Virus record (IMG/VR): IMGVR_UViG_3300020281_000015
Span: 22,010-86,009 of that record
DNA: 64,000 nt
Strand: one strand, 5' to 3'
From: a virus
Below, in pieces: positions 4,702 to 63,998 of the stretch. The first letter of the stretch is position 1. Each line of letters begins with the position of its first letter. The position numbers were made by a program, and so were the translations under genes. The notes below the pieces were generated by a model. It saw only the letters and a program-made list of their open reading frames with translations, was not told the origin of the DNA and did no database searches.

Positions 4702-4709
4702 GGTAAATA
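4702..4709 (+). promoter_or_regulatory. Late-promoter-like motif GGTAAATA before gp25
   Basis: A TAAATA core like the T4 late promoter (TATAAATA) lies in the 15-base gap before the gp25 start. It is only four bases from the ATG, so a transcript from here would have almost no leader. It may instead be chance in AT-rich DNA. Confidence 0.25.
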
Positions 4710-4713
4710 CAGT

Positions 4714-5151: not shown

Positions 5152-5164
5152 ATTATATACGCAC

Positions 5165-5181
5165 TTATCTGTAACAGATAA
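5165..5181. promoter_or_regulatory. Perfect 17-bp palindrome TTATCTGTaACAGATAA
   Basis: Two 8-base arms flank a single central base in the 56-base gap between gp25 and gp6. The right arm overlaps a late-promoter motif (5177-5184). A one-base centre is a poor RNA hairpin but a good binding site for a dimeric protein, so an operator is possible. No regulator is known from this window. Confidence 0.4.
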
Positions 5182-5184
5182 ATA
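5177..5184 (+). promoter_or_regulatory. Late promoter motif GATAAATA before gp6
   Basis: The motif matches the T4-type late consensus at seven of eight bases (TATAAATA) and ends 23 bases before the gp6 ATG. That leaves room for a short leader with a purine-rich AGAGGAAAAAG ribosome-binding site. Confidence 0.55.
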
Positions 5185-5207
5185 TCATAGTAAAAGAGGA
5201 AAAAGAC

Positions 5208-14800: not shown

Positions 14801-17800
14801 GAAGATTTAATGACAGAAACACCTCAAGCGTTTGAGTTGCTTAATACATTACCTACAACTAATTACGAAAAAGTTTATAGAATATTACCTAATGAAGTTT
14901 TTGATAAACCTGAGAATTATAATCATGAACCGTTCCCTACAAAAGTAATATCATCAGCAGACGAATATATAAAGACAGGTGGATATGTATCTGAAGAAGA
15001 TGTAGCATTTGTTGCAGGATCAATTCCAGAACTTGCATTAGGTGATGTAAATGCAGTAAACCTAGGCGATTATATATGGGTTGTTGAAACAGGGAAAAAT
15101 ACTTGGAGTGTGTATCAAGTGATTCCTGCGAACGTCAATGTAGTATCAGCAACAGTAAGAACAGATACTATTTCGAACGATGGTATGCGTTTAATTGACT
15201 TACAACTTGACACATGGGCAGATATTCCATATGATGGAATTAAAGCACTTATCACTGTAAATGATATTATTGGTGTACGTGGCGCGACTGCATATAATCT
15301 TGATGGCATGTATGCAATAGAAAAAGATGGAATAGATTTAACTAAAGTAACAATTAAAGCAGATATAAATGTTGAAACAGAAGACTTTGAAGGCGAATCA
15401 TTTCAAGTTGTTAAATTTAGAGAAGTGCGTAGAGCAACTATTGACGAACTTAATGTAAGTCGTTATGACATGTATGAAAAGCAAAAAGTATGGATAGATA
15501 ATTATAATGGTGATTGGGCCGTACTTGAGAATAATCCAGCATTTTCAGAAAACCAAACAATTTATAATACATCAGATTTTGATAGCACCGCACATGATTT
15601 TAGTAAAGGTGGCACTGTTACAGAAAATAACAATGATGTTTTTGTTTCTGCACCAGGAGACGGTTCAGGAAAAATTACGCATTATAAAAGAACAAACGAA
15701 AAGAATAATTTAGTTTATGATAATGTAATTCAATTAGATGCTAATGATGATTTACTTAATACTGCAAGCACTTCAAGATTTGGTGAAAGTATATCAGTAA
15801 GCCCAGACGGCGAATACTTAGCAGTAGGTATGCCAAACGCAACTGGAATCAAAACAAAATTTAAAGGTGACTTTGACAAAACACAAACTTACACTAAAGC
15901 TGATATTGTAAAGTATAGAGAAAGTTTATGGAAAGCAAACAGAGAAATACTTCCAGAAATTTCTTCGCAAGCATTTACTACATTTGATACATATGTTAAC
16001 TTGGCTGCTTCTGCTGATGCAGACTCTACAACTTTACAGCTACTAGTAGCAGGTGATCCTGGTTTAGCTAATAATACAGTAGATCATTTACTAGTTAGAG
16101 CACCAAAAGACATGTATTTAGGCACTTCTGCAGGAGATACTATTAGTTTATATTGGAATCAGCGAAGTTTTGCTTATCCTACATTAGATAATTATTTGCC
16201 GTTCAACGGTGCAATCCCTCAAATTAATTTTAGTTTTCTAACAGGCCAGCATACGATTGTCCATAAAGTTGATCATGTGTTGTTTGTATCAACATTTGTT
16301 ACACTACCTACTGTAGGTCAAACAGTTACAACAAACACTGGTAGTGCTACAGTCGCATACGTAGGAACAAAAGCTGATAGTGCAGTAATTTATATTAAAG
16401 ACACTAATGGTATATTCAATGTTACAGATGAATTGTTTATTGACGAAACAATATTTGTTGGTTTTTATTCTGAAACATCAACTTACAACACAAGTTCAGC
16501 TGTAGATGGATTTTGGTATATTAATACTGGATTTAGTTATTCTAATAATGCAACATACTATGACACAGGTAGAGGATTAGTATATGCAGATGTTAGATTA
16601 GCTTCATCATCAAGAGCATTTAATACATATTCAAATATTCAACAGGCTGTAGGTTCGATTGGATCATATGTTAAGAATAAAAATAGAGCCAGCTATATTA
16701 CACATTTATCTTACAGAGGTGATCCAGGCGGCGTCGAAGCAGATCAACTAAGCAACAAATGGGTAGTAAGAGGTGAAAAATCTTATACTGACACTTTAAG
16801 TGCAGGAGATGAAACTGAATTTAGAATATATGATCTAGAAAACAGAACAGTGGATGTTACTTCGGCTGGATTTAGTCTAGCTATTTTAAATAAAAAACAA
16901 ACTATTGTAGATCTTTGGGACGGATATATAGATTTTACTTTTGATGAATTTGATTTTAACGGAAATGTATTCGAACCTGTAATAGGAGATATAATCAGTG
17001 ATGTACAAATTCCAAACGACGGACAAGGCGGGTTGGCAATTACAACTCAAACTACAAGCACAGCGGAAGTTGTATTTTATAGAAGAAACTTTAACAGCGT
17101 AAGAGTTTATGTAAAAGCATTAAGCGGCGATTGGAGCCAGTTAACAAACATAGGCAAGTATTCTATACAACGTAATGCAAATACAGCAGTAAGAGGAATT
17201 GCTGACGTAAATCGTGTTATGGGCACAGTAGCTGACGTAGACAATGATATTGCAGTTGGGACTGCTACTGTAGGTAAATTAATAGTATTTGAAAATAGTT
17301 CACAATTCAATGTTGTTACTAATCCAGAAATTGTTGATGAGGAATATTGGTTCTTTAACGAAAATACAGAACAGGGTATTTCTAGGACAGAAAATCCTCC
17401 ATATAGTCTGAACAAAGATTACACACAAGTATTTCATATACAAGCAGAAGCTACTGGAGTAGCAGGTCCTAACACAGAAGGTGCGGTAGCAATATATAGA
17501 AGAACTGAAGGAGGAAATTATAGACGACAGTATGTGTTTGTTTCTGAACATAGAAAAGAAAATAGAAAATTCGGCAAAAAAGTCAAACTAGTACAAAAAG
17601 GAAATTATTATACACTTGCAGTTTCAAGCGAAGGTTTAGGTACAAGAGAAGATCCAGGTAGTATCGAATTTTATAGGCATGGTGTTAAGCCAGAACAAGT
17701 CAATAATTTTAGAGGCAATTATCAGATAGCCGCATACAGTGTTGGCGATATTGTAAAAAATAATGATTTATTTTACCTTTGTATAAGAGCCGCGGCTAGC

Positions 17801-20800
17801 ACAAATTTTGTTTCTGATCCTGTGTATTGGGAAAATATAAGTTGGAAGCACGGAAAAGACAGAAATTATAGAGGTGTATGGGACAATACTTACAGATATG
17901 AAAAAGGCACTATAGTAGAATACAATAATCAACTTTACAAAGCAAAAACTAATATTGCGGTAGGCGCTAGTTGGGCACCAACTAGCTGGGATTTGCTAAC
18001 AACTAATATAGACTATATTGGAATGTTACCAAATAGAACGAGTAAAACTTTTTATACAGACGAAAACATATTTGATCCTATACAGGATATACAACAATTT
18101 AGTAAAGATTTCGATCTAAGCAAAGATGGAGATGTGCTTGTTACCACAAGCACACAAGTTGCTACAGATAGTACCAGAGATATTGCAGTAGTAATATACA
18201 GAGAAGTAGATGATAAGTTTCAGTTTTCTCAAATGATCACTGAAAAATCAGCAGTTGACGGCTTTGCTGATAAAGTAAGTATGAATCCTGAAGGAACAAA
18301 GATTGCTGTTAGTGCTCCTTTGGAAGATACTACAAGAATTAATCAAGGCGTTGTAAACATTTATAGTGCAGATACTAGCGGAACATTCGGTACCCCAATT
18401 ACTACGTCAACGCAGATAGACTGGACACAGTTTGCTACAGCAGTTTTAGAAATGTCTTCAAATAACTTTACTCATCCACTAGTACCTTTCTTAAAAACGC
18501 AACATACAGATGGAAGAATTTATGCTGATGCTAATTTAAGTGGAAATATTGCAGATAGTGTAGATCAACAAGCAGATGATATAAATGTTTGGGACGCATT
18601 AGAATGGCAAAGATATGCGGCTGATCAAGATAATCATACGGTTAACAGTCATTCTTGGATAGATGGCACAGTAAAATCTGCATTTCTTAAAGTAGCAAGT
18701 TCTTATCCTTCGGCTTTGAAAACAGTAAATGTTGATGTAGGAGAATGTACACCTAATCAAATTTTACTTCCACCACAAGACGAAGAATCAGAAAAGTTTG
18801 GTCATAGTGTTGAATGGGGATCAGAATACTTGGCTATATCAAGTCTTAATGGGGATCAAAAAATTCCTACAGAATTTGATACATATACAAAAACACAAAC
18901 AGATTCATATCAGTTAGATGTAACCTCTGATAGGAAACAAACACCTACTACTTTTGACAATAAATTTACCACATTTAAAAATATAAAAATTGACAAAGGT
19001 GTTATATATCTGTACGAAACACTAGAAAACAAAGTAACACAATCAGAAGTTATTACGTTTCCATTAATACAAACAACGTTCGGAGAAAATCTTCTAGCAC
19101 AAGGAAATCATTTGTATGTAGGTTTACCTCAACAATTTGATAATAATAAAAGAGGTGCTGTAGTTGATTTTAGAAAACTGCCAGGAAATAATGCTTGGAA
19201 ACAAATAAGAAGCAGTGTTACTCCTGTTGATGTAGATAAAATTAGAGGAGCATTTTTATATAATAAAAGAGAAAATCAAATTGTTACATATCTTGATTTC
19301 ATAGATCCTGTGCAAGGAAAAATAGCAGGTATTGCAGAACAAGAAATTGATTTCAAAACAAAATATGATCCTGCTTTCTACAATACAGGACAATTGGCAG
19401 ATGATAATGTTGATCCTAATAGGCACTGGGCTGAAAAGTATATAGGTAAAGTATGGTGGAATATTGCAGGAGCAAGATTTGCTCATCCTTATCAAGGTAG
19501 TACTAATTTCCAAAGAAACGTTTGGAACACACAATTAGAAGGCTCAACAATTAATGTTTATGAATGGGTAGAAAGTAAATTACTACCATCTACTTGGGAT
19601 TCTATTGCTGATACAGATGAAGGGTTAGCACAAGGTATTAGCGGAATAAGTTTGTTTGGTAATACAAAATATACAACAAGATTAGTATATGATAGTGTAA
19701 GTAAAACTTTTAATAGTCTATATTACTTCTGGGTAGAAAACAAAAAAACAATACCTGCAAACACAAAACGTTTATTAAGTATTAGAAACATTGCCGCACT
19801 TATAGGAAATCCAAAAGATCAAAAATATAGATATCTTAGTTTGCTATCTAAAAATAAGTTCCTATTAACAAATTGTAATGACATTGTTAATAATGACGAT
19901 ATTGTTTTAAACATAAAATATACAAATGATAATTTACAAAAACAAAAACAAAATACACATAGTCAATATCAAATTTTAAGTAAAGGCTTATCTACTAGTG
20001 TGCCAAATCCTGATATACAATTAAAATGGTTTGATAGTTTGATAGGATTTGATGATAAGGAGCGTAAAGTCCCTAACACTGATGTACCAGTAAAAAGTAG
20101 ATACGGAATTCAAAACAGACCAAGACAAGGAATGTTTGTTAACAGATTTGAAGCACTAAAACAATTTATTGAACGTGTAAATCTTGTATGTAAACAAAAC
20201 CTATTAGCTGACGAATATGATCTAAGTTCATTATCTATGAAAGAACCTTTGCCTACTTTATTAAGTGGCGAATATGATCATAAAGTAAGTACCTATAGCG
20301 AAATAAATTTTATTAGTACAAGTAAAGTAACTCCTGCAAAGCTTACTCCTGTAGTCCTAAATGGTAAAATTGTTAGAGTAACAATTGATGATGCAGGTAG
20401 AGGATATAAAGTTGCTCCAAGACTTAAAATTACCGGCGCAGGAAAAGATGCTGAAGTAAAATTAACTATAGATACTTTAGGAAAAATTACTTCTGCAACT
20501 GTAGAAAATCAAGGAACAGGTTATGATGAAAATACTTACATTAGTGTAAGGAGATACAGCGTATTAGTTGAAGCTGATAATACAGTGTTTAATAAATGGG
20601 CATTGTATTCTTGGAACGAAACTGATAGTGTATGGTTTAGAAGAAGCATACAAGACTATGACGTAACACAGTTTTGGAGTCAAATTGATTGGTATGCAGA
20701 TGGCTACAATCAATTTACAGAAATAGATGATATAATTGCAGGTTCTTACTTACTTACAAGTCTTGATAATAGCATAGGTGATGTTGTAAAGATTAATAGT

Positions 20801-23800
20801 GTAGGATCTGGCGGATGGCTACTATTAGAAAAAATTGCAGATGAAGATACAGAAGATTATACAGTAAATTATAAAACAATTGGTAGACAAAACGGAACAA
20901 TTGAATTTAATGATAGATTATATGATTATACAAAAAACACTGTAGGTTTTGACAATAGAAGTTTTGATAGCTATTTCTACGATAATACGCCTGCAAAAGA
21001 ATTAAGAATAATACTTAATGCAATAAAAGACAAAATTTTTATAGGTACTCTTGCAGTTGAATATAATGAATTATTTTTTGCTTCATTAAGATATGTATTA
21101 GCTGAGCAAAAAGGTGCTGATTGGTTATTTAAAACAAGTTTTGTTAAAGCTAAACACAATCTTGGACCTTTATACCAAGATCTAACATTTAATAATGATA
21201 ATTTAGCAAATTACGAAGCTTACATTAATGAAGTGAAACCATATAGCACGAATGTTAGGGAATTTGTAAGTAATTATTCTACAGTACAAGAAACTAATAC
21301 AACAATTAGTGATTTTGATTTACCGCCAGAATATAATAATTTAACAAAAGCTATAGAAGCTAGTAAGGCACAAGTTATTGATGGTGTAGTAGTTTCTTCA
21401 CCAAACAGTGCAAGTATATATCCTAGAAAACATTGGGCTGATAATAATTCATATCAAGTAAAAGAAATTAAAATTAGTAATCCAGGTAGCGGATATACAT
21501 ATACACCTACTGTAAAAATTACAAACACAGAAGGATCTGGTGCTACTGCAAAAGCATATTTAGGTTATGGTAAAATTACTAAAATAGAAGTAACAAACCC
21601 TGGCTCAGGATATATTAAGCAACCTATTGTTACTATAGAAGGGCCGCAAAGTGAAGGTAGTGTAAAAGCTACTGCTACAGCAATTCTTGGTAATGGTGTT
21701 GTAAGAGCTCCTACTATTGTAACTAAATTTGATAGAATTTCAGGTAAAACATACTATACTACATTATTACAAGAAAGCACATTTGCAGGCACAGGTTCTC
21801 AATTAACCTACAATTTAGAATGGCCAATGGACCTTTCAGCTTCAAAAGTTAAGGTTTTTGTAGGCAAAGATGCAAATAATTTAGTTGAACAGTTAAGAAG
21901 TGCTTATACTTTTACTAATATTGAAAATGATACAGCAGGTTATACACGAGAGCAAGGTAGAATTACATTTACAACTCCACCAAAAAATAATGATGTTATA
22001 AAAATAAGTTATTATAGGCCTTTAAGCTTGCTTACAGCTGAAGATAGAATAAACTTCGCATACAATCCAACAAAAGAAATGTATGGTAAAGAACTATCAC
22101 AACTAATGACAGGTATAGATTATGGCGGAGTTCAAGTTCGTAGTTTTGAATTTGATAAACCAGCTGGTTGGGATAGTGCAGGCTGGTATACAGATAGTTG
22201 GGACACATTTGATAATACATTTGAAGATGAAGTTTTTTATAGTGATGGTTCTACAAATGCTGTACAGTTGACAAAACCAATGGCAAATGGCATTATGTAT
22301 AATTTTTACTTGAACGGTGTACGTATTGATGATCCAAATTATGATAATAGCACCCTAAATAAAAACCCTAGTGCAATTACAAATTCGATTATAGGCGATG
22401 GAGTTACAGATACATTAGATTTAGAAACTATGGGTATTAGGTTAGCACCTAGTGATGTTTTAATAATAAGAAAAACTACTAGTGATGGAAGCACATTGCC
22501 TGATGCAGAAAGTTATGATACAGCATTGTCTGGAGGTGACTTGGCATATAAAACAGCAACAGGTTTAAAAGCAGAAGATATTATTATCGATGGTGATGAC
22601 TTTGTAACACCTACAACAAGTGGCGGTCCTGAAGAGCTTGTTCCAGGACAAGTACTAGATACTTTAGACATAAAAGTGTTTACAAGAGATAGTGCAGGAC
22701 AAGGAAGAATACACAGTCAAAGCTATACAATGACTAATCAAACCATTTATGATTTAGGTGTAATTCCAAGAACTGCTCCTGCTGTAATAGTGAAAGTTGC
22801 TAACGTAATTCAACCTACTAGCAATTACACAATTGATTGGAATTTGAATACAATAACTTTAAATAATCCAACTCCTGGTGCAGAGTTAAACATAATTGCA
22901 ATGGCACAAGGTACACAAAAAGTTTTAGATTTCGGCACAGGACAATCAGTAGCTGGCCAATCAGATTACCTTACAACAGTTGACTGGGAAGAAGGAGTTA
23001 GTGTTTTTGTAAGTGTCAATGGTGTGGCATATAATGATGTGGTTGTATTTAATAGTGCAGAAGATAGTGTTCCAGGACCAGCAAAGGTTGGTATTAGATT
23101 TAGTACTCCTTTAGAAGCATCTAACTACAAAATACATTACACAGTATTCAGTGATAGCACAAAAATAAATTACAGTCAAGTAAGCAAAGACCAATTCCAA
23201 GCAGATGGTACAACTAAATCATTTTCTCTTGCTACTACTCCATTTTATGCAAAACCAAATGAGCATAACATAATTGTAAAAGTTGCAAATAAAATTTTAA
23301 ATCCTGGTTATAATATACAGTATACTATAGATTCAGATAATACGAGAGAATATAAAATTGAATCTTTCCAACAGCCAATAGGATCAAATGCGGCATCTGA
23401 TATTAAAGTATTTGTTGATGGAGTAGAAAAGTTTACTCCAAATGAGTGGAGATTTGATATTGCTAATAGCCAAGTTGTGTTGGCTGATGAAGTAGGTAAA
23501 CCTGGCTCTACTGTAGAACTTTTTGCAATTACAGATGGCGAATACAGGATAACAGGAAATGTAATCACGCTTGATAGTACTCCAGCTCAAGATACAATTA
23601 TTGAAGTTTTCCAATTTTCAAATCATGATTTACTTGGCCTAGAAAGAATCAACTATGACGTTGTTAAAAGGACTTTGTTATTATCAACTGATGTACAAAA
23701 TACAACATATAACAGATTAACAGTAGGAGAAATTACACTTAGAAGTAAAGCAGTAGATGCTGAATATGTATGGGTAAGTGTAAACGGTGAATTGCTTACG

Positions 23801-24607
23801 CCTAGTGTTGATTATTATCTTACAGATGACCAAATGAAGGTTAGGTTAGTAAGAACACCAGAAGCAAATGATGTAATTGATGTATTGCACTTTAGCGAAA
23901 AAGTAAGTACAGAAAAATTTGCATATAGACAATTTAAAGATATGTTAAACAGAACACACTTTAAGCGTTTAGATAAAGAAGCTACTACTCTTAGTGTTCC
24001 ACTGAATAGCACAGATTTAAGAATAGAAGTTGTAGACGGGACTAACTTATCAGTACCTAGCAAAGGACAGAATATTCCAGGAGTACTTTTTATAAATGGA
24101 GAAAGAATAGAATATTTTGTAAAAGAAGGCAATACATTAAAGCAATTAAGGAGAGGTACACTTGGTACAGGTGTAAAATCAGTTTACCCAGCAGGTCAAA
24201 AAGTATTTGATCAGAACATAAGTAAGACTATACCATATAAAGATATGACACAGTCACAGAGCTTTAATGGAGATGGTGCTACTACTGCATTTACTTTAGG
24301 ATTTGATGTTACATCTGCAGATGAAATTGAAGTATTTTCTGCAGGTTCAAGACTAAGAAAAACAACTTTACAATCTTTTGATCCAGCAGTAGCATTAGAT
24401 AGTCCAGATGGTGATACGACATTACCAGAAGAGTTTACTCTAAACGGACAAGTTTTAACTTTAAGTGCTATTCCTGCATTGAATACTAAGGTAACAGTGA
24501 TTAAAAAGACTGGTCAAACATGGACAAATACAGGAGAAACACTAGGAGAAGCTGAAAATTCTATAGCACGATTCTTACGAGCAGGAACTTCGGCGCTACC
24601 AGAATAA
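8810..24607 (+). CDS. Giant virion structural protein, 5,265 aa (gp7/gp8 position)
   Basis: One uninterrupted frame of 15.8 kb is coupled to gp6 by TAATG. The N-terminus (GINFLPKFFRTEANKKFLQG, YGWNPNIDWDKFVNFREYYW) resembles the very large proteins that I recall following gp6 in marine T4-like phages. Visible modules include five W/Y-rich segments like chitin-binding CBM5/12 folds near residues 1577, 1843, 2353, 2964 and 3018 (for example YRYEKGTIVEYNNQLYKAK). There are propeller-like strands near 2272-2344, 3101-3187, 3330 and 3423 (FGESISVSPDGEYLAVGMPN). G-x-G-Y repeats lie near 3859, 3896, 4220 and 4260 (ITNPGSGY-like). A role as a peripheral wedge or fibre that may touch surface glycans is inferred. 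No frameshift or stop breaks it. Confidence 0.85.
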   Translation: MSYDDNQKDLTPPIPGEKVKNIGINFLPKFFRTEANKKFLQGTIDQLVQPGVAEKVSGYIGRETAKAFQPTDNYIGDVTNDRKNYQLEPAAVIKDNFDNVLFYKDYNDYVNQLGAFGSNNDNHSRLNNQDSYGWNPNIDWDKFVNFREYYWLPNGPTSVAVRGQNKEVVSTYTVTTSDQGDNISYVFNDGLTVNPTIKLYKGQTYRFEIDTPGHPIAFAITRSFTPGSAILTAGSEGIRADGQFDAKLYGNNYDQGEYVVLPSSGSVTFEADENVSTLYPTGITKYGKEGEVISVVYVEEGTIEFTVPENAPDRLYYVSQNSVDTSGLIRIYDIAENSAINVADEILGKKTYSSANNVKLSNGMKLTFQGEVTPAKYATGQWYVEGVGSQIKLINSKDLIIPAAYSTNKLVPFDTDKFDELPFADAKAFAATKDYITVNRASPDRNAWSRYNCWYHKDVILASESYNSLPTTLDESTRAKRPIIEYEAGLKLNNFGVSAKNDVDLVDVFTKDVFSTIEGSTGYNVDGVDLSDGMRVLFTADTDILVSGRIYEVKFVTINNVRQINLKTVSDTDPIDLETVLVTQGSKYAGTSFHYNGTLWVQSQQKTITNQHPLFEVFDANTNSFSDTTYYGSTTFTGTKIFSYKQGIGTNDTELGFPLSYKSINNSGDIVFNFNLLNDTFTYQTDTDLFTQAISTGYLKKYKSLTEFDYVNGFSSIATSTRQMVLKQYTSTDIKNNNFEIDAYKKAGDLNDLIVHVYLDNKLKIINQDYEIDRANGFAHVRFYNDLKSGQVIKIKTHSSSAKVNGHYEFPHNLERNPLNEDITEFTLGEVIDHVDTMIEDIQGFSGEYPGRSNLRDVGETDQFGKRFVKHSGPINIPLYHITNKEFNIVKALRYSKNEYSRFKRKFLETANSLGYDGPIKQHVDKILNEINKEKIKSEPFYFSDMLGYGDANVIKYTVVDARTTTYPITSPFNLTDLSAKSINIYLNGIQLEYGLDYTFNSDGYAVITASKVEDDIIEIYEYESTDGSFIAPTPSKLGLYPKYYPELTIDDSYIQSSTTNTGPFKVYGREEQTTKTHKGKVGWFYPLYTSEEAAIAADSDSSADTGSAHKHVFEGLSQIFYMPSTEVNHAVQDSDLYDEYPVGVAMIRGHDGSYIKAYKDFRDELILELERRIFNNIKVDYSKALLDIQDFIGGEYRTSEFSKSEVDNTLAADFQQWLRLIGSKEYTEHDFYDPNNSFTFNYASASTPLGNGHPGFWRGAYMHAYGTDRPNATPWEMLGFTMKPTWWEATYGPAPYSGDNLVLWKDLEEGRIKEPGVAEVVNGKYARPGLTNHIPVDGQGKLRSPRDSNFARAFLRRQATNGWKFGDHAPVETAWRRSSEFPFAILLAYLLNKPAKVMGLGFDVSRTKKNLVKQWIQNDTNKPIQLSTAKLPNTYKDDTRVLTCGLVNYIYNLVASDVLSVYTDYKNNLANLRNQLGFKVGGFTDTSKFNLILDSRSPTKQADRDGIFVPQESFKVFNNTSSPLEMVTYSGMSVEKAGSGYIIRGYSNTSPEFEYYKPKQGSSKITVTVGGISEASSEWSANTFYERGQVIQFKNEFYRAARQFTSGDTFTADDTVAKLDELPITGGRTAHFFKDFDETEVFKLQYGTRLSTTQEVVDLMLGYNARQKVLGFSFNEVDSFNEKVENWENTAREFMFFTTQGWAAGTVITLSPGAPKIEFSRPNVVVDNLYDTFYEYSIFKADGQPLSAELNGVVREGNSFGLAVADSDEGIYHVALPLVQKEHVILLENKTAFSDVIYEPKSGYRQERIKVSGYRTADWDGGLNLPGFLYDEAKIVDWSQWKDYKIGELVKYKQFYYTAKNNIPGSKNFNASSWLQLSNKPEPELTANMDYKANQFTDFYDLDSAGFDSEQQRLAQHLIGYQKRQYLANIINDDVSQFKFYRGFIGEKGTMNALTKLFESLGTGQESALDFYEEWAIQTGRFGATDNTKQVEFSLKEDLMTETPQAFELLNTLPTTNYEKVYRILPNEVFDKPENYNHEPFPTKVISSADEYIKTGGYVSEEDVAFVAGSIPELALGDVNAVNLGDYIWVVETGKNTWSVYQVIPANVNVVSATVRTDTISNDGMRLIDLQLDTWADIPYDGIKALITVNDIIGVRGATAYNLDGMYAIEKDGIDLTKVTIKADINVETEDFEGESFQVVKFREVRRATIDELNVSRYDMYEKQKVWIDNYNGDWAVLENNPAFSENQTIYNTSDFDSTAHDFSKGGTVTENNNDVFVSAPGDGSGKITHYKRTNEKNNLVYDNVIQLDANDDLLNTASTSRFGESISVSPDGEYLAVGMPNATGIKTKFKGDFDKTQTYTKADIVKYRESLWKANREILPEISSQAFTTFDTYVNLAASADADSTTLQLLVAGDPGLANNTVDHLLVRAPKDMYLGTSAGDTISLYWNQRSFAYPTLDNYLPFNGAIPQINFSFLTGQHTIVHKVDHVLFVSTFVTLPTVGQTVTTNTGSATVAYVGTKADSAVIYIKDTNGIFNVTDELFIDETIFVGFYSETSTYNTSSAVDGFWYINTGFSYSNNATYYDTGRGLVYADVRLASSSRAFNTYSNIQQAVGSIGSYVKNKNRASYITHLSYRGDPGGVEADQLSNKWVVRGEKSYTDTLSAGDETEFRIYDLENRTVDVTSAGFSLAILNKKQTIVDLWDGYIDFTFDEFDFNGNVFEPVIGDIISDVQIPNDGQGGLAITTQTTSTAEVVFYRRNFNSVRVYVKALSGDWSQLTNIGKYSIQRNANTAVRGIADVNRVMGTVADVDNDIAVGTATVGKLIVFENSSQFNVVTNPEIVDEEYWFFNENTEQGISRTENPPYSLNKDYTQVFHIQAEATGVAGPNTEGAVAIYRRTEGGNYRRQYVFVSEHRKENRKFGKKVKLVQKGNYYTLAVSSEGLGTREDPGSIEFYRHGVKPEQVNNFRGNYQIAAYSVGDIVKNNDLFYLCIRAAASTNFVSDPVYWENISWKHGKDRNYRGVWDNTYRYEKGTIVEYNNQLYKAKTNIAVGASWAPTSWDLLTTNIDYIGMLPNRTSKTFYTDENIFDPIQDIQQFSKDFDLSKDGDVLVTTSTQVATDSTRDIAVVIYREVDDKFQFSQMITEKSAVDGFADKVSMNPEGTKIAVSAPLEDTTRINQGVVNIYSADTSGTFGTPITTSTQIDWTQFATAVLEMSSNNFTHPLVPFLKTQHTDGRIYADANLSGNIADSVDQQADDINVWDALEWQRYAADQDNHTVNSHSWIDGTVKSAFLKVASSYPSALKTVNVDVGECTPNQILLPPQDEESEKFGHSVEWGSEYLAISSLNGDQKIPTEFDTYTKTQTDSYQLDVTSDRKQTPTTFDNKFTTFKNIKIDKGVIYLYETLENKVTQSEVITFPLIQTTFGENLLAQGNHLYVGLPQQFDNNKRGAVVDFRKLPGNNAWKQIRSSVTPVDVDKIRGAFLYNKRENQIVTYLDFIDPVQGKIAGIAEQEIDFKTKYDPAFYNTGQLADDNVDPNRHWAEKYIGKVWWNIAGARFAHPYQGSTNFQRNVWNTQLEGSTINVYEWVESKLLPSTWDSIADTDEGLAQGISGISLFGNTKYTTRLVYDSVSKTFNSLYYFWVENKKTIPANTKRLLSIRNIAALIGNPKDQKYRYLSLLSKNKFLLTNCNDIVNNDDIVLNIKYTNDNLQKQKQNTHSQYQILSKGLSTSVPNPDIQLKWFDSLIGFDDKERKVPNTDVPVKSRYGIQNRPRQGMFVNRFEALKQFIERVNLVCKQNLLADEYDLSSLSMKEPLPTLLSGEYDHKVSTYSEINFISTSKVTPAKLTPVVLNGKIVRVTIDDAGRGYKVAPRLKITGAGKDAEVKLTIDTLGKITSATVENQGTGYDENTYISVRRYSVLVEADNTVFNKWALYSWNETDSVWFRRSIQDYDVTQFWSQIDWYADGYNQFTEIDDIIAGSYLLTSLDNSIGDVVKINSVGSGGWLLLEKIADEDTEDYTVNYKTIGRQNGTIEFNDRLYDYTKNTVGFDNRSFDSYFYDNTPAKELRIILNAIKDKIFIGTLAVEYNELFFASLRYVLAEQKGADWLFKTSFVKAKHNLGPLYQDLTFNNDNLANYEAYINEVKPYSTNVREFVSNYSTVQETNTTISDFDLPPEYNNLTKAIEASKAQVIDGVVVSSPNSASIYPRKHWADNNSYQVKEIKISNPGSGYTYTPTVKITNTEGSGATAKAYLGYGKITKIEVTNPGSGYIKQPIVTIEGPQSEGSVKATATAILGNGVVRAPTIVTKFDRISGKTYYTTLLQESTFAGTGSQLTYNLEWPMDLSASKVKVFVGKDANNLVEQLRSAYTFTNIENDTAGYTREQGRITFTTPPKNNDVIKISYYRPLSLLTAEDRINFAYNPTKEMYGKELSQLMTGIDYGGVQVRSFEFDKPAGWDSAGWYTDSWDTFDNTFEDEVFYSDGSTNAVQLTKPMANGIMYNFYLNGVRIDDPNYDNSTLNKNPSAITNSIIGDGVTDTLDLETMGIRLAPSDVLIIRKTTSDGSTLPDAESYDTALSGGDLAYKTATGLKAEDIIIDGDDFVTPTTSGGPEELVPGQVLDTLDIKVFTRDSAGQGRIHSQSYTMTNQTIYDLGVIPRTAPAVIVKVANVIQPTSNYTIDWNLNTITLNNPTPGAELNIIAMAQGTQKVLDFGTGQSVAGQSDYLTTVDWEEGVSVFVSVNGVAYNDVVVFNSAEDSVPGPAKVGIRFSTPLEASNYKIHYTVFSDSTKINYSQVSKDQFQADGTTKSFSLATTPFYAKPNEHNIIVKVANKILNPGYNIQYTIDSDNTREYKIESFQQPIGSNAASDIKVFVDGVEKFTPNEWRFDIANSQVVLADEVGKPGSTVELFAITDGEYRITGNVITLDSTPAQDTIIEVFQFSNHDLLGLERINYDVVKRTLLLSTDVQNTTYNRLTVGEITLRSKAVDAEYVWVSVNGELLTPSVDYYLTDDQMKVRLVRTPEANDVIDVLHFSEKVSTEKFAYRQFKDMLNRTHFKRLDKEATTLSVPLNSTDLRIEVVDGTNLSVPSKGQNIPGVLFINGERIEYFVKEGNTLKQLRRGTLGTGVKSVYPAGQKVFDQNISKTIPYKDMTQSQSFNGDGATTAFTLGFDVTSADEIEVFSAGSRLRKTTLQSFDPAVALDSPDGDTTLPEEFTLNGQVLTLSAIPALNTKVTVIKKTGQTWTNTGETLGEAENSIARFLRAGTSALPE

Positions 24608-57496: not shown

Positions 57497-58171
57497 TTAT
57501 TTCTTTCTGCCAAATACTCTAATCTGCACTCTAGGCGAAAAAATTTCTGTGGTACAATGTGGCATACTATCATCAAAGTGCCAACATTTATATTTTGATT
57601 CATCAACTTCGTGCATCTCTTTTCCTACTCTGTATTGCAAATGACCGCCACCATCAGAAACATTTAGTGTTATAGCAACACCACCGTTCCTAAAATATAA
57701 TAAATTATCTCTGTATCTAGCATCTGCATGCACTATACCTTTACTAGGTGGAGTTTGACCTACAAGTCTAACACAACTTACATATTTAAGATTAAACTTG
57801 TTTACAATTTCTATTAGACTTTGTGGTGTATCTTCTTTCCATTTCCATGCAGTATCATACACATGCCAAATAGGACTTCTACCTCTAAATGTATCTAAAT
57901 AACAAGTATTCTCTGTTTCAGGAATGCCGGGGATATGTGTAAAGTTATAGTTTACAAATGTTTTATATTTGTTTTCTACTAGATTACGGTTTTCATCGTA
58001 ATGAGTGACATCATCGTACTGTTCAAAGTAACCATCTTTATCATAATTACTACGTCCGTCAGTGTAAATAACAGTAGCGAGAAAGCTTTTATCAAACATA
58101 TTTGTTGACATTAAGTCCGCATAAAGACTTTGCTGATCAAAGTCAACATCTATAGGTACAAAAGCATTCAT
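57497..58171 (-). CDS. Putative 2OG-Fe(II) oxygenase C, 224 aa
   Basis: PPSKGIVHADARYRDNLLYF gives H148-x-D150, and WHFDDSMPHCTTEIFSPRVQ gives distal His205 and Arg214. AITLNVSDGGGHLQYRVGKE is a barrel strand with a small loop. It has a unique N-terminal ~130 residues. It is the first gene of the minus-strand trio, and a double late-promoter motif lies just upstream on the same strand. Confidence 0.72.
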   Translation of the reverse strand: MNAFVPIDVDFDQQSLYADLMSTNMFDKSFLATVIYTDGRSNYDKDGYFEQYDDVTHYDENRNLVENKYKTFVNYNFTHIPGIPETENTCYLDTFRGRSPIWHVYDTAWKWKEDTPQSLIEIVNKFNLKYVSCVRLVGQTPPSKGIVHADARYRDNLLYFRNGGVAITLNVSDGGGHLQYRVGKEMHEVDESKYKCWHFDDSMPHCTTEIFSPRVQIRVFGRKK

Positions 58172-58195: not shown

Positions 58196-59077
58196 ATGGT
58201 ACAAACATTTCCGATATCAGCTTTAACACATAATAATTATTTTACTACGTCTGGTCACGGTTCAAGATGGAAAGTAAAATTGAAATCAGGTGACAGGTTT
58301 CCAGATAATTATTACAAGGAAAGTATTAGAGCCGCTCGGCTACTAGACTCTTCAATTGACGCACCTTTGGTATTATTGTTCAGTGGTGGTTTAGATAGTG
58401 AATATATGGTGAATGTTTTTATTAAATCGGGTGTAGAATTTAAAGTAGCAATTATAAGTTACGGAGATTATAATAAACATGATAACAAGTATGCCTTTGA
58501 ATTTTGCAAAAAGCGTAACATAGAGCCTATTGTTATTGATGTCGATATAGAGAAATTTATTACTAGTGGCAGAATAATTGAAATAGCAAATGAAGCCAAA
58601 TGTTGTGCTTATCAGATTCCTAGTATTATGGAAGGTATACTTAAAGTAGATGGTGCTGTAATAATGGCAAACGGAGAACCTTATGTAAAAAACTTTGATG
58701 GTGATTGGCGATGGGAAGAAACTGAAAGAGTCAATAGTTATATGAATTGGTACAAACAAAAAAATATTCTTGGTACACCGGATTTTTTAAGATATACTCC
58801 TCAAATGACAGCAGGTTTTTTGTTAGAACCTAGGGTAATGAAATTAGTGAACAATGAATTACCTGGAAAATTAAGCACTAGAACTAGTAAACATATAATA
58901 TACAGTCAAAACTTTGACCTTGCAAAAAGATCAAAATTTACAGGCTGGGAAAAATTAGAACAAACTGATTTTATGAATAACGAAGTATTCCGTGAATTTG
59001 ATTTATTAAAGAAAAAGTATGACGGGGTTTTCGAAATGCAATACCAAGCTTTACTTGATATACTTTTACCTACATAA
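58196..59077 (+). CDS. PP-loop ATPase (N-type ATP pyrophosphatase superfamily)
   Basis: I choose ATG 58196, with AGGGG ahead, because the longer version starting at 58130 would run back into the divergent gene. LVLLFSGGLDSEYMVNVFIK has the PP-loop S-G-G-L-D-S (residues 63-68). FKVAIISYGDYNKHDNKYAF and IEPIVIDVDIEKFI are the next Rossmann-like strands, and GAVIMANGEPYVKNFDGDWR follows. Members such as asparagine synthetases, QueC and NAD synthetases activate a substrate by adenylation. The exact class is unclear, and no glutaminase domain is attached. Confidence 0.8.
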   Translation: MVQTFPISALTHNNYFTTSGHGSRWKVKLKSGDRFPDNYYKESIRAARLLDSSIDAPLVLLFSGGLDSEYMVNVFIKSGVEFKVAIISYGDYNKHDNKYAFEFCKKRNIEPIVIDVDIEKFITSGRIIEIANEAKCCAYQIPSIMEGILKVDGAVIMANGEPYVKNFDGDWRWEETERVNSYMNWYKQKNILGTPDFLRYTPQMTAGFLLEPRVMKLVNNELPGKLSTRTSKHIIYSQNFDLAKRSKFTGWEKLEQTDFMNNEVFREFDLLKKKYDGVFEMQYQALLDILLPT

Positions 59078-59486
59078 AACCGTCACCATCAGCGCCTCTT
59101 TGAGCTACGCCTTCTGGATCTAATTCATCTTTCCTAGGGTGTTGTATACGAGTCTCTTGTCTTTCTGCCGCAAATTCTGCAAATTCATCAAAACTCATAT
59201 CTTCTACTGTGGTTTCAATAAAACCTGTACCTGATTCAAGGTATGCTCTATGAGGAGCCATCTTTGTTACAGCTTCGTCAGAATCTAAAATGAATACACA
59301 ATGAATATTATCGCCATTATGTTCATAGTTTCTAAACCATATATCACCTTCGTCGGTCATAGTTTTCAATCCATTAAACATAGTTTCAAATTTAGCTTTA
59401 TCATTGTCTAGTTCATCAATCATTTCAGTGACAAATTGGGTAATGCGTCTACCGTTGTGAGGAAATTTCAATGTAACTTTCTTCAT
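59070..59486 (-). CDS. Hypothetical protein, 138 aa, own promoter
   Basis: No family recognised. The protein is acidic at its C-terminus (HPRKDELDPEGVAQRGADGD) and has a beta-rich start (KKVTLKFPHNGRRITQFVTE). A good ribosome-binding site (AAGGAG, six bases from ATG on the minus strand) and a late-type motif precede it. It stands alone between two + strand genes and overlaps the upstream PP-loop gene tail-to-tail by eight bases. Similar short acidic proteins in phages can be regulators, but nothing here shows this. Confidence 0.65.
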   Translation of the reverse strand: MKKVTLKFPHNGRRITQFVTEMIDELDNDKAKFETMFNGLKTMTDEGDIWFRNYEHNGDNIHCVFILDSDEAVTKMAPHRAYLESGTGFIETTVEDMSFDEFAEFAAERQETRIQHPRKDELDPEGVAQRGADGDGFM

Positions 59487-59560: not shown

Positions 59561-60121
59561 ATGCAGTATTTTATTCTTAACAATCTTATTTATGACACAA
59601 ATTTACTAAAACAAAACATTAAGAATATACAAAATTGGGAGTACTATGGGTCAGGCAGAACTAGATTAGGTGTTGTGCTTTCTGACAAAGATACAATAAA
59701 GCATATAGCTTCCAAATTCAATAAACCTAAAGATATAATTTATAAAATAGAATCAAACTGTATACATCCATACGAAAGAGTGTTACCTCATACTGATCAC
59801 GATAGAAGAGTAACATGTAATATTCCAGTAAGTGGTGATTTTGATAATAGCTTTGTTAAGTTTTATGCTAATAATACTACTGGATCTGCAATACCTGTTG
59901 CACCCAACACTACAAAACCTAACACTGCAAAGAGATATGATAATGCAGAAATGTTAGGAAAAGTTAGTTACACAAAACCTATTTGTTTTGATACGCAAAA
60001 TATACATGGTGTAGATAATCTAACAAAAGAAATACGTTATATTATTACTATATCATTTCGGCTAGATCTAAGCTATGAAAATATATTAAATATGTACAAC
60101 AATGGAGATCTGCTTAAATGA
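59561..60121 (+). CDS. Putative 2OG-Fe(II) oxygenase D, 186 aa
   Basis: YERVLPHTDHDRRVTCNIPV gives H77-x-D79, and ICFDTQNIHGVDNLTKEIRY gives distal His149 and Arg159. It is a short, complete double-stranded beta-helix. Its stop overlaps the start of the PhyH-like gene by four bases, so the two oxygenases are made together. Confidence 0.78.
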   Translation: MQYFILNNLIYDTNLLKQNIKNIQNWEYYGSGRTRLGVVLSDKDTIKHIASKFNKPKDIIYKIESNCIHPYERVLPHTDHDRRVTCNIPVSGDFDNSFVKFYANNTTGSAIPVAPNTTKPNTAKRYDNAEMLGKVSYTKPICFDTQNIHGVDNLTKEIRYIITISFRLDLSYENILNMYNNGDLLK

Positions 60122-60810
60122 TTCAAGGATATGAAATAATCAAAAATTGCTTTGATCCTGTTGATCTTGCAAAGTGTAGTCAAGATCTTCTTGATAGGAA
60201 AGAAGATTCGTATATCTATGAACATGATGGTAGTATAAGGAGTGTGTTTGCACCACATTGGTATAATAAAAATGTTGAAAAGTTTGTGTATAATAATCCT
60301 GCAATTCCTCGTATAAAAGAATTAATAGCAGATGAAATATATGTGCATCAAGTACATTTTAATTACAAATTAGCAGGTGTAGGCGGAGAATATGCATGGC
60401 ATAGCGATTATACATTTTGGCATTACTATGATGGCATGCCCAATCCAAACGCTATAAGTGCCCTGTATCTTTTGGACGACATGACAGATGAAAATGGACC
60501 ATTAGAAGTAAAGATTAATAGTCATAAAGGACCAGTCCAAAAACCTCCAAAAGGGGAGTGGACTATAAAGCATGACAGTAAGGAACTACCTATAAAAACA
60601 CCGTCTAAGACTGCATATAAGCGTCATACAGTGCTTGGCAAAGCTGGTGATGTAGTTTTGATGCATGCTAATTTACTACACGCTAGCAAGGCAAATAAGA
60701 GCCATAAAAACCGAAAAGTGCTATTTATATGCTATAATTCGCTAAAAAACGCCACGACAGAGGCGTTAAGACCTGGTTATATTACCCTAAAAAATTTTAA
60801 GACTGTTTAG
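60118..60810 (+). CDS. Phytanoyl-CoA dioxygenase (PhyH) family protein
   Basis: YAWHSDYTFWHYYDGMPNPN has H95-x-D97. AISALYLLDDMTDENGPLEV is the conserved middle (al-lddmt-enGpl--). GKAGDVVLMHANLLHASKAN has distal His188, and NRKVLFICYNS has the 2OG-binding Arg. The family includes hydroxylases of lipids, ectoine and antibiotics. Near its 3' end the DNA also encodes a terminator for the opposite strand. It overlaps the convergent ATP-grasp gene by 14 bases. Confidence 0.87.
   Translation: MIQGYEIIKNCFDPVDLAKCSQDLLDRKEDSYIYEHDGSIRSVFAPHWYNKNVEKFVYNNPAIPRIKELIADEIYVHQVHFNYKLAGVGGEYAWHSDYTFWHYYDGMPNPNAISALYLLDDMTDENGPLEVKINSHKGPVQKPPKGEWTIKHDSKELPIKTPSKTAYKRHTVLGKAGDVVLMHANLLHASKANKSHKNRKVLFICYNSLKNATTEALRPGYITLKNFKTV
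60742..60767 (-). terminator. Intrinsic terminator for minus-strand operon
   Basis: On the minus strand AACGCC, an eight-base loop and GGCGTT form a six-pair GC-rich stem followed at once by a run of six T (two shared with the stem). It lies 30 bases past the stop of the ATP-grasp gene. It is inside the coding sequence of the convergent PhyH-like gene, where it reads LKNATTEALR. Confidence 0.75.
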
Positions 60811-61933
60811 TAATGTTGATGTGTGTTAGTACGTTTTCGTACTTTATCTCGGCATTTAAGAGCCTTTTATCAGTGGTGATTGCATAGCCATTTAAGCCTA
60901 CAAGTAAGTCCAAACGCCTTAAGTATTGTTGTTGATTTGGTAGTTTGAGCTCATCATATTCTACTCCAGGACGCATAGATACTTTATATTTTCCTTTTCC
61001 TAAGTTAAAATATCTAAATACCACTGCTTTATCAAGCTTAATTTTTTCTTTTGTCTTATGTACAATACTATCCATTAATATTCTATTATAATTACAATTG
61101 GCAGAATATTTTATTATAGTTTGTCCACTTGTACTTAATCTTGGACTAAAGTCTACAAGATATGGAACATTATCACGGACTACAAAATCAGCCATAAAAG
61201 GACCATTATTATAGTCTAAGCTTTCGCACATAATCTTGCAATAATTTCCTATATCACACTGTACAGACGTATCTACTTTGCTAGGCCAAGTAAACCCTGT
61301 TTCAGCTCTAAACGGAAGATCACTAATTTCTATGTCATATATACAGTCTAAAATATATTCTCCATCTACTATTCTGCCTGATACACTTACAGTTGGCCCT
61401 TCAATAAACTCTTGGTATATGTAATGGGAGTTTAGATCATTATAATGTATATCATCCAAAAAGTATCTATATTCACTCCAATTGTTTAACACTTTGATAC
61501 CGATCCCGCCAGTGCCGTTAGCAGGTTTTGCTACCACAGGAAATTGTCTTCTTAGTTTTAAATGGGTTATTGGTACAGGTATACCAATATTATATGCATG
61601 GTTAGTATAATTTTCTTTACTACTTAATATATCACATTGCTGTTTGTTAATACCTACTAGATCATGAATATATGGCAACATCATATCATTATACAAAGGA
61701 AAAATATAATCAATTTTGTGTGTAGATATAATTTCTCTAAGTTGATTTGCAAGTTCCTTTCTATCATCGGTGCTAATAATAAAATTAGGAATTTTATCTG
61801 GTACAGTAGGTAGTAGTTTGTCTAAAAAATCACTTACATGTGTCTGCCATGTATATAACTTATAATTGTTTAGTTCTTGTGTAGTGTATCTTAAATTATC
61901 ACTTTGATAGTTTATAATTACTTTAGGAGCCAT
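60797..61933 (-). CDS. ATP-grasp domain protein
   Basis: QFPVVAKPANGTGGIGIKVL is the ATP-binding glycine-rich loop, HYIYQEFIEGPTVSVSGRIV the strand with the acidic base contact, and VVRDNVPYLVDFSPRLSTSG the Mg-binding end of the ATP-grasp fold. The N-terminal pre-ATP-grasp part has KIDYIFPLYNDMMLPYIHDL. ATP-grasp ligases join a carboxylate to an amine or thiol through an acyl phosphate, often in peptide tailoring or carbamoyl chemistry. It is the last gene of the right-hand minus-strand operon. Confidence 0.87.
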   Translation of the reverse strand: MAPKVIINYQSDNLRYTTQELNNYKLYTWQTHVSDFLDKLLPTVPDKIPNFIISTDDRKELANQLREIISTHKIDYIFPLYNDMMLPYIHDLVGINKQQCDILSSKENYTNHAYNIGIPVPITHLKLRRQFPVVAKPANGTGGIGIKVLNNWSEYRYFLDDIHYNDLNSHYIYQEFIEGPTVSVSGRIVDGEYILDCIYDIEISDLPFRAETGFTWPSKVDTSVQCDIGNYCKIMCESLDYNNGPFMADFVVRDNVPYLVDFSPRLSTSGQTIIKYSANCNYNRILMDSIVHKTKEKIKLDKAVVFRYFNLGKGKYKVSMRPGVEYDELKLPNQQQYLRRLDLLVGLNGYAITTDKRLLNAEIKYENVLTHINITKQS

Positions 61934-62534
61934 ATGTAACCTTATCCCTCATAAATGTGTTCATATAGTGAAATTTCATACTAACAAATCTTATTGTTAC
62001 ATCATACGGTAAAGGCTTACCTCCTAAGCAATGATCATACAATTTGTTTCCAGTCATATGTCCTGCTTTTACATATGCGGCATCTGTAATATTATATTTT
62101 TCATCGTACAATTTACCCATCTTATCACCAAACTTTGATACATTTTGTCCTTGTAGTTGATTGCTTCCTTTTTTACTTACATTGTCTATGTCAAATTTTC
62201 TAATCCAAAAAGCACCCCACTTTCCTCTTTCTTCACAATCGTCTATTTGGAACTTTACAAGTTTCGATATATTTTTTATATTAGTAAAATGACTTTGATC
62301 CCGTCTTGCTAGCAAAGTATCAGTAGTAGTCCAAGGCATATTAGGCAAGTTGTTGTTTGCAATTACTGCTTGTATTTCATCGTCATGTATAGATGCATAT
62401 ACATTTCTATCATCTGCAATGTATTTTACATTTTGCCATTGTGGATCTTTTTGCAGTGAGTGTAATTCAATTTGCGTATTAATAAATTTATAAAACATTT
62501 CTTTATGTTCGAAAGTTAGTTTAACACACTTCAT
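61923..62534 (-). CDS. Hypothetical protein, 203 aa, GNAT-like shape
   Basis: I do not recognise a family with confidence. KYIADDRNVYASIHDDEIQA and VIANNNLPNMPWTTTDTLLA look like the opening strands of an acyltransferase fold, and QIDDCEERGKWGAFWIRKFD resembles the motif B strand and helix of the GNAT-like gene at 53418. No clear acetyl-CoA loop is visible. It overlaps the ATP-grasp gene by 11 bases and the radical SAM gene by one, so joint work with them is likely. Confidence 0.55.
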   Translation of the reverse strand: MKCVKLTFEHKEMFYKFINTQIELHSLQKDPQWQNVKYIADDRNVYASIHDDEIQAVIANNNLPNMPWTTTDTLLARRDQSHFTNIKNISKLVKFQIDDCEERGKWGAFWIRKFDIDNVSKKGSNQLQGQNVSKFGDKMGKLYDEKYNITDAAYVKAGHMTGNKLYDHCLGGKPLPYDVTIRFVSMKFHYMNTFMRDKVTYGS

Positions 62535-63469
62535 TAGTATCCGCCTTCATTTCTTAATACATGTTCGAAGAAAGGAGCTACAGTCCAATTTTCAGTTAAT
62601 CTACCCCTATTAGGATTATCATGGTCAACAACACCGTCGTCATTTACAGACCAATCTACTAATCGAATTAAGATAGTACCTATTCTTGTTTTATATTCAA
62701 ACATTCTACTAGTCATTCTATCGCCATCTTGCGGACCTGCTTTAACTACTCCACTACTTGTTTCAAAAATATTTTCTTTTTTTACTCCTAGTTCTTTTAC
62801 AGCTAAGTCCATTAGTTCTTCCATTGAATAACTACTATCTTGCATATGTCTACCAATAAGTCCTACACTTTTCATACGAAGCACAGGTGTTATTCTATTA
62901 TAAGGAGCAGTAGTATTAAAATTTATTCCACTTTTTTCTGCAAGATCAGTGAAAACTTCTACTTGTCTACGCATTGTCCTTTCATTTACACCTTTTGCAA
63001 TAATTGTTCCTGTATTCACAGGTAATCTAGCATCGAAAATATTTTTTAAAGCTCTTACTTTTGCAGTCGCCCATTTACCTTCATCTAGTATTTTATAAAC
63101 TTCGTCGTCGTCTGCACCATTCATTGAATGTAATAATAAACGCAATCCAGCATCTTTTAATTTTTGAACATATTCTGGTCTTGCTAGTTTCAGTCCATTA
63201 GTTGTTACACTAGGTCTGTGACCGTATTTTTTAACTGCGGTAATTATTTCTGGTAGATCTTCACGCATAGTAGGTTCTGCTCCGATAATACGTATGTAAG
63301 ATCTAAAAGGTAATCGCTGTAAAAAATCAAATAGTTTATGTTTGTCTAAATCAGGTATATTCCGATTAGGAATATAACAGTTAGCACATTCCATTTGACA
63401 TTTATGTGTAATATCAACTACAATATTAGAAAAGGTATTGTTTTCTGGTTGAAGTTCGAAATACTTCAT
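62534..63469 (-). CDS. Radical SAM protein, single-cluster type
   Basis: I choose ATG 63469, one base after the upstream stop (TAGTATG), over ATG 63520, which would overlap the TauD-like gene by 50 bases. THKCQMECANCYIPNRNIPD gives C24-x3-C28-x2-C31, and RIIGAEPTMREDLPEIITAV is the SAM motif with G-A-E-P in place of G-G-E-P. RPSVTTNGLKLARPEYVQKL is the next conserved strand. The C-terminus has no extra Cys cluster, unlike the N-twitch group. Such enzymes often act on peptides or small molecules. Confidence 0.87.
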   Translation of the reverse strand: MKYFELQPENNTFSNIVVDITHKCQMECANCYIPNRNIPDLDKHKLFDFLQRLPFRSYIRIIGAEPTMREDLPEIITAVKKYGHRPSVTTNGLKLARPEYVQKLKDAGLRLLLHSMNGADDDEVYKILDEGKWATAKVRALKNIFDARLPVNTGTIIAKGVNERTMRRQVEVFTDLAEKSGINFNTTAPYNRITPVLRMKSVGLIGRHMQDSSYSMEELMDLAVKELGVKKENIFETSSGVVKAGPQDGDRMTSRMFEYKTRIGTILIRLVDWSVNDDGVVDHDNPNRGRLTENWTVAPFFEHVLRNEGGY

Positions 63470-63470
63470 A

Positions 63471-63998
63471 CTAGATCCAGAACTGCACTCGCCACAGTGT
63501 TCTCGATCCAGTAAAAGCATGGCGTCTATGCATTACTCTTATATTATCGTAAATAAGGATATCATTTGGTTCCCATTGATGTTCATATATATTCTTCTCA
63601 CAATGTGTAATTAAATGACTTACATCTATATCAGTTTGTAGTGAACCAGGACTAAAGTATAAAACTTTATCTCCAGTGATATGATGTGTATGTGCAAATT
63701 TTCTTGTTTGCTTGCGTTTTTCTAGTATTCTTTTTTGTTGTTCAGTAAAACAATAGTTGTATGCATCTGGAGGAAAATAAGTACCTTCTTGATCTTCTAA
63801 TTCTTGTTTGTTAGGATAAGTTTGGTATGCATCTTTCATATCTACAAAATCTGTAGTGCTTTTTTCTCCGTTTAATTTATTGTAGAGCATTGTACCAAAA
63901 TAATTTCCTCTACCATAACTCCAATCATTATGCCATTCTACATCTCCGTCTATAAAAAGATCTGTCTCACTAACAATTTGTATGGTGTTATTTTTATT
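63471..63998 (-). CDS. TauD/TfdA-like 2OG-Fe(II) dioxygenase (5' end outside window)
   Basis: The minus-strand frame stays open from the internal ATG at 63890 to the right edge, and the extra part encodes FIDGDVEWHNDWSYGRGNYF. That supplies the H-x-D iron motif missing from the shorter version. IYDNIRVMHRRHAFTGSRTL and WRVQFW give the distal His and the 2OG-binding Arg of the TauD family. The gene is therefore partial here, with its start beyond base 64,000. It is the most upstream visible gene of the operon with radical SAM and ATP-grasp genes. Confidence 0.85.
   Translation of the reverse strand, partial: NKNNTIQIVSETDLFIDGDVEWHNDWSYGRGNYFGTMLYNKLNGEKSTTDFVDMKDAYQTYPNKQELEDQEGTYFPPDAYNYCFTEQQKRILEKRKQTRKFAHTHHITGDKVLYFSPGSLQTDIDVSHLITHCEKNIYEHQWEPNDILIYDNIRVMHRRHAFTGSRTLWRVQFWI

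Follow-up and report, generated by a model that had tools for sequence, protein, structure and literature searches.

A conserved PanD-ATP-grasp operon of a jumbo T4-like marine phage, a candidate pathway for a beta-alanine amide

We describe a set of five genes in a jumbo T4-like marine phage that encode, from 5' to 3', the aspartate 1-decarboxylase PanD, a TauD-type oxygenase, a radical SAM enzyme, a protein with a predicted GNAT fold and an ATP-grasp ligase. We propose, with the scales about evenly balanced, that this operon produces beta-alanine, links it to a second amino acid or another acid and then modifies the conjugate, yielding a phage-encoded small amide metabolite from free amino acids. 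The component families are known; the combination of PanD, ATP-grasp, GNAT and TauD/radical SAM is new, and no description of this gene set was found in a search of open-access papers.

The phage and its operon

The window, that is, the whole stretch of DNA that was analyzed, comprises 64 kb at the right-hand end of a virus record of 86,009 bp, so that its right edge is also the end of the record. The same phage is represented by PBPT01000016.1, a 335-kb metagenome-assembled contig, which matches over 11,201 bp at 99.97% identity and continues past the window edge; it is also 100% identical to positions 33 to 50 kb of the window and at the capsid end. The T4-type capsid and replication genes and the large contig identify the phage as a jumbo T4-like marine myovirus: the record carries T4-type head and replication genes (gp20-, gp21-, gp22-, gp46- and gp47-like, by reading), and the capsid protein is 65 to 69% identical to those of the jumbo phages Phosso, 2.275.O and PA5oct. 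PBPT01000016.1 was binned in a Neomarinimicrobiota metagenome-assembled genome (MAG), which is only a hint at the host.

The preliminary description had reported four overlapping or abutting genes on the minus strand of the window, and the coordinates, Pfam matches and dN/dS values bear this out (Table 1): successive frames are at most 1 nt apart or share up to 11 nt. The extent of the operon stood for these four genes; the full set is five, the first gene, PanD, being located outside the window and directly upstream of TauD in the same phage (99.97% identity over 11.2 kb). In L052, the extension beyond the right edge, PanD follows a fibre gene after a gap of 39 nt, and TauD begins 10 nt past the PanD stop codon, probably at a TTG, to give a full protein of ~233 residues. 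The PanD frame overlaps an open TauD frame, and PanD was identified by DNA reading and a profile search. The start of the radical SAM gene, originally placed at 63520, was corrected to 63469, 1 nt after the TauD stop codon; the homologues begin at that Met. Because the operon proteins of relatives are 45 to 75% identical and pairwise dN/dS values for the five genes range from 0.27 to 0.44, indicative of purifying selection, the coding is not due to chance. The arrangement suggests that the five genes form a single promoter-to-terminator operon of the phage.

Table 1. Features of the operon and its surroundings in the window and in the L052 extension
Feature	Position in window	Strand	Position in L052	Remarks
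Fibre gene			3835-5373	
PanD			5413-5754	
TauD-type Fe(II)/2-oxoglutarate oxygenase, C-terminal 175 aa	63471-63998	-	5765-6463	Pfam TauD 2.3e-18; cut by record end
Radical SAM enzyme	62534-63469	-	6465-7400	311 aa; Pfam Radical_SAM 1.5e-16; homologue alignment
Protein with predicted GNAT fold (earlier "unknown" gene)	61923-62534	-	7400-8011	203 aa; fold from AlphaFold and Foldseek
ATP-grasp carboxylate-amine ligase, L-amino-acid-ligase type	60797-61933	-	8001-9137	378 aa; Pfam ATP-grasp_3 1.5e-11
Intrinsic terminator	60744-60767	-		Stem 60748-60767, AACGCC/GGCGTT, with an 8-nt loop and a T-run; falls within the PhyH gene, at its 3' end
PhyH-type 2OG oxygenase, convergent	60118-60810	+		Pfam PhyH 1.4e-25; co-conserved with operon
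PP-loop (QueC/asparagine-synthetase-like) ATP pyrophosphatase	58196-59077	+		SGGLDS; Pfam QueC 2.6e-06; co-conserved
224-aa protein, HxD motif	57497-58171	-		63-91% identity in PanD contigs; no Pfam match

Proteins of the operon

PanD matches PF02261 at 5.7e-29 over residues 3 to 107 of 113. In an alignment to the E. coli enzyme (1ppy), it retains the equivalents of K9, Y22, G24-S25, R54, T57, Y58 and N72, and thus has the Gly24-Ser25 self-cleavage site together with activation and active-site residues. While the Pfam/TIGRFAM match, the Gly-Ser site and most active-site residues are shared with bacterial aspartate 1-decarboxylases, the phage copy is shorter, has Q for His11 and V for Trp47, and lacks the PanZ-binding tail. 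The copy in one relative, L029, scores 77.8 bits, below the TIGR00223 cutoff of 106. Gordonia phage Jace, in which a PanD 51% identical to that of L029 lies beside an "ATP binding protein" and a 227-aa protein, was considered as a carrier of the same trio and rejected: direct and profile comparisons of the neighbors gave no homology.

The ATP-grasp ligase resembles the L-amino-acid (dipeptide) ligases BL00235 and BacD in both sequence and modeled fold, combining an ATP-grasp domain with a Lal-type fold. The first PDB match in a profile search was BL00235 (3vot; E 6.6e-11), and the AlphaFold model (pLDDT 84.2) retrieved the same structure as the best Foldseek match, over the length of the protein (TM 0.80), followed by BacD/YwfE of the bacilysin pathway (TM 0.75 to 0.77). 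Unlike BL00235, to which it is ~15% identical, the ligase is phage encoded and would be fed by the adjacent PanD, and its metal-site motif reads D-F-S-P-R versus E-V-G-A-R. In a genome scan with the ligase profile, the full ligase was found solely in the phage's own contig in the MAG. A cellular origin was rejected, the other matches being remote, partial ATP-grasp genes (≤42%) with no PanD nearby at a tblastn E of 1e-3. Neither the ligase nor the GNAT gene had a match among 50,697 GenBank phage records.

The gene families proposed earlier for TauD, radical SAM and ATP-grasp were confirmed by Pfam; the third gene gave no match to Pfam, PHROG or NCBIfam models, including those of GNAT families. 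Its structural model (pLDDT 82.3) nevertheless predicts a GNAT fold: the top 50 Foldseek matches in the PDB are mostly GNAT acyltransferases (best E 7.6e-07), the best being acetyltransferases such as AAC(6')-Ii, RimI and SpeG. In Gammaproteobacteria, the GNAT homologue PanZ/PanM matures PanD (PMC4410942, PMC4537548), and the tail of PanD that PanZ binds is the C-terminal KAIPVQVA (PMC4410942). The phage protein is similarly a GNAT-fold candidate partnered with PanD, and a PanZ-like role is possible; it differs in that it has no sequence match and that the phage PanDs have other C-terminal ends, from which KAIPVQVA is absent. Membership in PanZ/PanM failed both the docking-tail and the sequence tests, the profile of the phage protein retrieving only three unrelated PDB chains at E up to 10 and no PanZ.

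The TauD protein scores 67.5 bits against PF02668 (cutoff 27), and an iron triad H-N-D (WHND) and distal His (VMH) can be read in its sequence. In the radical SAM enzyme, CX3CX2C (C24, C28 and C31) and GAEP are invariant among 17 sequences. Among proteins of solved structure, it is closest to archaeal tetraether synthase, MoaA, BlsE and PqqE; only four weak partial matches were found among the GenBank phage records. Assignment as a viperin was rejected: the PADLOC pVip matches are weak (best 1.1e-11, residues 17 to 127) and reflect generic radical SAM similarity, and NCBIfam gave stronger matches to TrsS, MoaA and Tes.

A conserved core and an exchangeable cassette

We identified 13 PanD contigs representing about ten lineages. 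PanD and the ATP-grasp gene occur together in all 10 PanD lineages, and the GNAT gene is recognizable in nine. The outcome that the preliminary description had named as refuting, unrelated neighboring genes and a set that is not conserved in relatives, therefore did not occur: the neighbor beyond the window is PanD. The tenth lineage (L035/L036) has a changed gene order, a ligase 30% identical and, in the GNAT place, a 189-aa protein, which is assigned its role by size and place only, a profile having given no homology to the GNAT protein. Every PanD contig that is long enough also has the PhyH, PP-loop and 224-aa genes, with PhyH beside ATP-grasp. The 224-aa protein looks 2OG-oxygenase-like by reading only.

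The idea of the four window genes as one fixed set held in part, since several lineages lack TauD and radical SAM. A desaturase, TauD_a, TauD_b and radical SAM constitute a cassette that is optional and, where present, separates PanD from the GNAT gene; the TauD of the window is 60% identical to TauD_b of L029. The TauD_a-TauD_b-radical SAM set was also found in other virus contigs that have no PanD or ligase. (Judged by eye, the c4 proteins encoded after radical SAM in such stand-alone modules resemble GNAT proteins.) In a maximum-likelihood tree, the radical SAM of the window groups with the stand-alone copies and is split from three other PanD-linked copies with 100/100 support. The radical SAM genes beside PanD thus come from two separate clades. 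Such a gene has therefore entered the PanD operon, or been replaced in it, on at least two occasions, and this speaks for a functional link.

Phages carry auxiliary metabolic genes, which usually boost a host pathway. As in the auxiliary metabolic islands of marine T4-like phages, the genes described here lie beside structural genes and among many 2OG oxygenase and radical SAM genes; the difference is a defined PanD-GNAT-ATP-grasp core with its own promoter.

Signals at the operon ends

TTGAC(N) and a TATAAT-like hexamer precede PanD in all 10 lineages inspected. In each, the -10 box ends exactly 6 nt before the PanD ATG, and the spacer sequences differ. The same pattern is absent elsewhere in 124 kb of this phage, in which several other consensus-like promoters sit 20 to 30 nt before their genes. 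We infer that the PanD transcript would begin at or next to the ATG, i.e., as a leaderless mRNA.

The intrinsic terminator that had been proposed to end the operon withstood closer analysis. It is the sole hairpin of its class (6 bp, 4 GC, followed by TTTT) on either strand of the 64 kb; six Markov shuffles, both strands of each being scanned, contained 0, 0, 0, 0, 1 and 0 such hairpins. The terminator is retained in L043, the closest long relative, and not in five more distant relatives. A generic terminator scan did not detect it, and the 71-nt fold at this position is ordinary (z -0.56).

A proposed pathway and its alternatives

The earlier view of these genes as a small-molecule tailoring set is supported, and its suggestion of a free substrate is favored. 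We infer the reactions, the product and its role as follows. PanD, a self-cleaving pyruvoyl enzyme, would convert aspartate to beta-alanine (or a close beta-amino acid). The ATP-grasp ligase would then convert a carboxylate to its acyl phosphate and condense this with an amine; the resulting amide would be dipeptide-like and include beta-alanine. The GNAT-fold protein may acylate an intermediate or, alternatively, assist PanD maturation. Finally, TauD could hydroxylate or desaturate the product and the radical SAM enzyme could make a radical C-H change; being absent in several lineages, this exchangeable tailoring cassette is optional and not essential to the core step. The convergent PhyH and PP-loop neighbors probably act in the same pathway. 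Against this scheme, the ligase is only distantly similar to BL00235 (~15%), and its sequence does not reveal its substrates. PanD might instead contribute to CoA synthesis, and the analysis revealed no exporter, no self-resistance gene and no clear target.

There are precedents for such chemistry. Carnosine synthase (ATPGD1) is an ATP-grasp ligase that uses beta-alanine as an amino acid substrate (PMC6920838); it is a vertebrate enzyme, and the analogy is one of chemistry only, drawn without sequence comparison. According to its abstract, a report on E-64 biosynthesis describes an NRPS-independent route to a pseudodipeptide via a 2OG oxygenase and an ATP-grasp ligase, with an amide synthetase (PMC12568646). 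That pathway is fungal and builds another scaffold, and the abstract names no PanD and no radical SAM enzyme.

The main rival, since the island borders a fibre gene and has sugar genes further left, is decoration of the surface or virion: the ligase would put beta-alanine or another amino acid on a nucleotide sugar or on a glycan of the tail fibre or host envelope, and variation in the decoration would come from the oxygenases and radical SAM enzymes, joined in relatives by sulfotransferases. The tail-fibre gene adjoins the island in PanD contigs, UDP-sugar dehydrogenase, DegT-type, hexapeptide transferase and GT2-like genes are found in its left part, and sulfotransferase-like genes adjoin PanD in a relative. 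However, the conserved PanD block has no glycosyltransferase, and the closest matches of the ligase are enzymes that act on free amino acids; we consider this explanation unlikely, if deserving of attention.

It is also conceivable, though we think it improbable, that there is no single pathway and that the genes belong to a hypervariable auxiliary island, in which PanD, aided by a GNAT protein in the manner of PanZ, supplies host CoA synthesis while each of the other enzymes has a separate function. The coming and going of TauD, radical SAM and desaturase would fit, as would the maturation of PanD by a GNAT homologue in Gammaproteobacteria. It would also fit that the phage PanD is the only one in the MAG that holds PBPT01000016.1, but this MAG may be incomplete. 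Against this reading, the phage PanD lacks the KAIPVQVA tail, nearly all lineages have the ligase and GNAT genes after PanD, often in overlapping frames, and pantothenate synthesis is not known to involve such an ATP-grasp ligase.

Construction of a modified nucleobase for DNA hypermodification is very improbable. The PP-loop QueC-like gene and radical SAM resemble parts of the deazaguanine pathway, but QueC is matched only weakly (TIGR00364 E 1.1e-04, 21.9 bits versus a cutoff of 150.3), the best radical SAM family matches are not QueE, and the annotated genes include no glycosylase or transglycosylase.

Least probable is a RiPP cluster in which the radical SAM, ATP-grasp and oxygenase enzymes modify a ribosomal peptide: these classes do occur in RiPP clusters, as the preliminary description had pointed out, but with gaps of at most 10 nt within the operon and 39 nt before PanD no precursor gene fits, none was found in the operon or directly before it, the 17-homologue alignment of the radical SAM enzyme has no further conserved cysteine of the auxiliary-cluster (SPASM) kind, and no leader-binding (RRE/PqqD) domain in the operon proteins was matched by Pfam or NCBIfam models, which diverged RREs can escape. 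Nor does the precursor lie just beyond the right edge, as had been suggested: L052 shows PanD, not a peptide gene, and then the fibre gene.

Implications

With a conserved PanD and ATP-grasp core, its own promoter and swappable oxidative tailoring, the operon looks like a biosynthetic pathway of the phage's own. A more ambitious reading, which we advance as speculative and rather doubtful, is that jumbo marine phages encode a complete pathway, transcribed independently from a leaderless mRNA, whose end product is a new natural product of the beta-alanine amide kind with a function in infection; the product might be, for example, an inhibitor, signal or protectant, diversified between lineages by the TauD/radical SAM cassette. 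The five proteins are soluble and of ordinary size, and the pathway idea is thus directly testable in E. coli. If true, it would provide a concrete substrate class for the 2OG oxygenases and radical SAM enzymes that marine T4-like phages carry in large, so far unexplained numbers.

Genomic setting and related modules

The 335-kb contig L052 (C57 of assembly bin G001; PBPT01000016.1) represents the present jumbo T4-like phage but is filed in a Candidatus Neomarinimicrobiota MAG, where the phage copy is the sole PanD in the bin. A second contig of this bin, C77, matches parts of C57 at 100%, indicating that the bin is contaminated or contains duplicate assemblies.

In the window, the enzyme island left of the operon encodes five radical SAM proteins additional to the operon's own, a UDP-sugar dehydrogenase and a hexapeptide transferase, a partial DegT aminotransferase, GNAT and fatty-acid-desaturase-like proteins, as well as several HxD-motif proteins. 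The 138-aa gene has fast-diverging relatives (32 to 68% identity) at the same position in other PanD contigs.

Virus contigs with the stand-alone radical SAM module contain neither PanD nor the ligase; its c4 protein, encoded after the radical SAM gene, is ~165 to 210 aa long and matches no family. In relatives, sulfotransferase-like genes adjoin either this module or the PanD operon.

Features of the window and of related contigs
Feature	Contig	Position	Strand	Remark
Uninterrupted reading frame, 5,265 codons	Window	8810-24607		Tail region
Enzyme island	Window	33064-56798	+	Long
138-aa gene	Window	59070-59486		
Consensus promoter before PanD	L052	5370-5415		Conserved, ten phage lineages
Radical SAM - c4 - TauD_a - TauD_b (TauD-type oxygenases)	L005-L014, L022			Stand-alone; virus contigs
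Sulfotransferase-like gene	L016	7091-7702		Pfam match
Sulfotransferase-like gene	L035	5216-5962		By reading only
Sulfotransferase-like gene	L037	2775-3374		Pfam match
Sulfotransferase-like gene	L037	5993-6745		Pfam match

A promoter ahead of PanD

The promoter pattern found before PanD does not occur across 124 kb of the rest of the same phage. Since its -10 box ends exactly 6 nt upstream of the PanD ATG in all ten lineages, the mRNA of the PanD operon is probably leaderless, judging from sequence.
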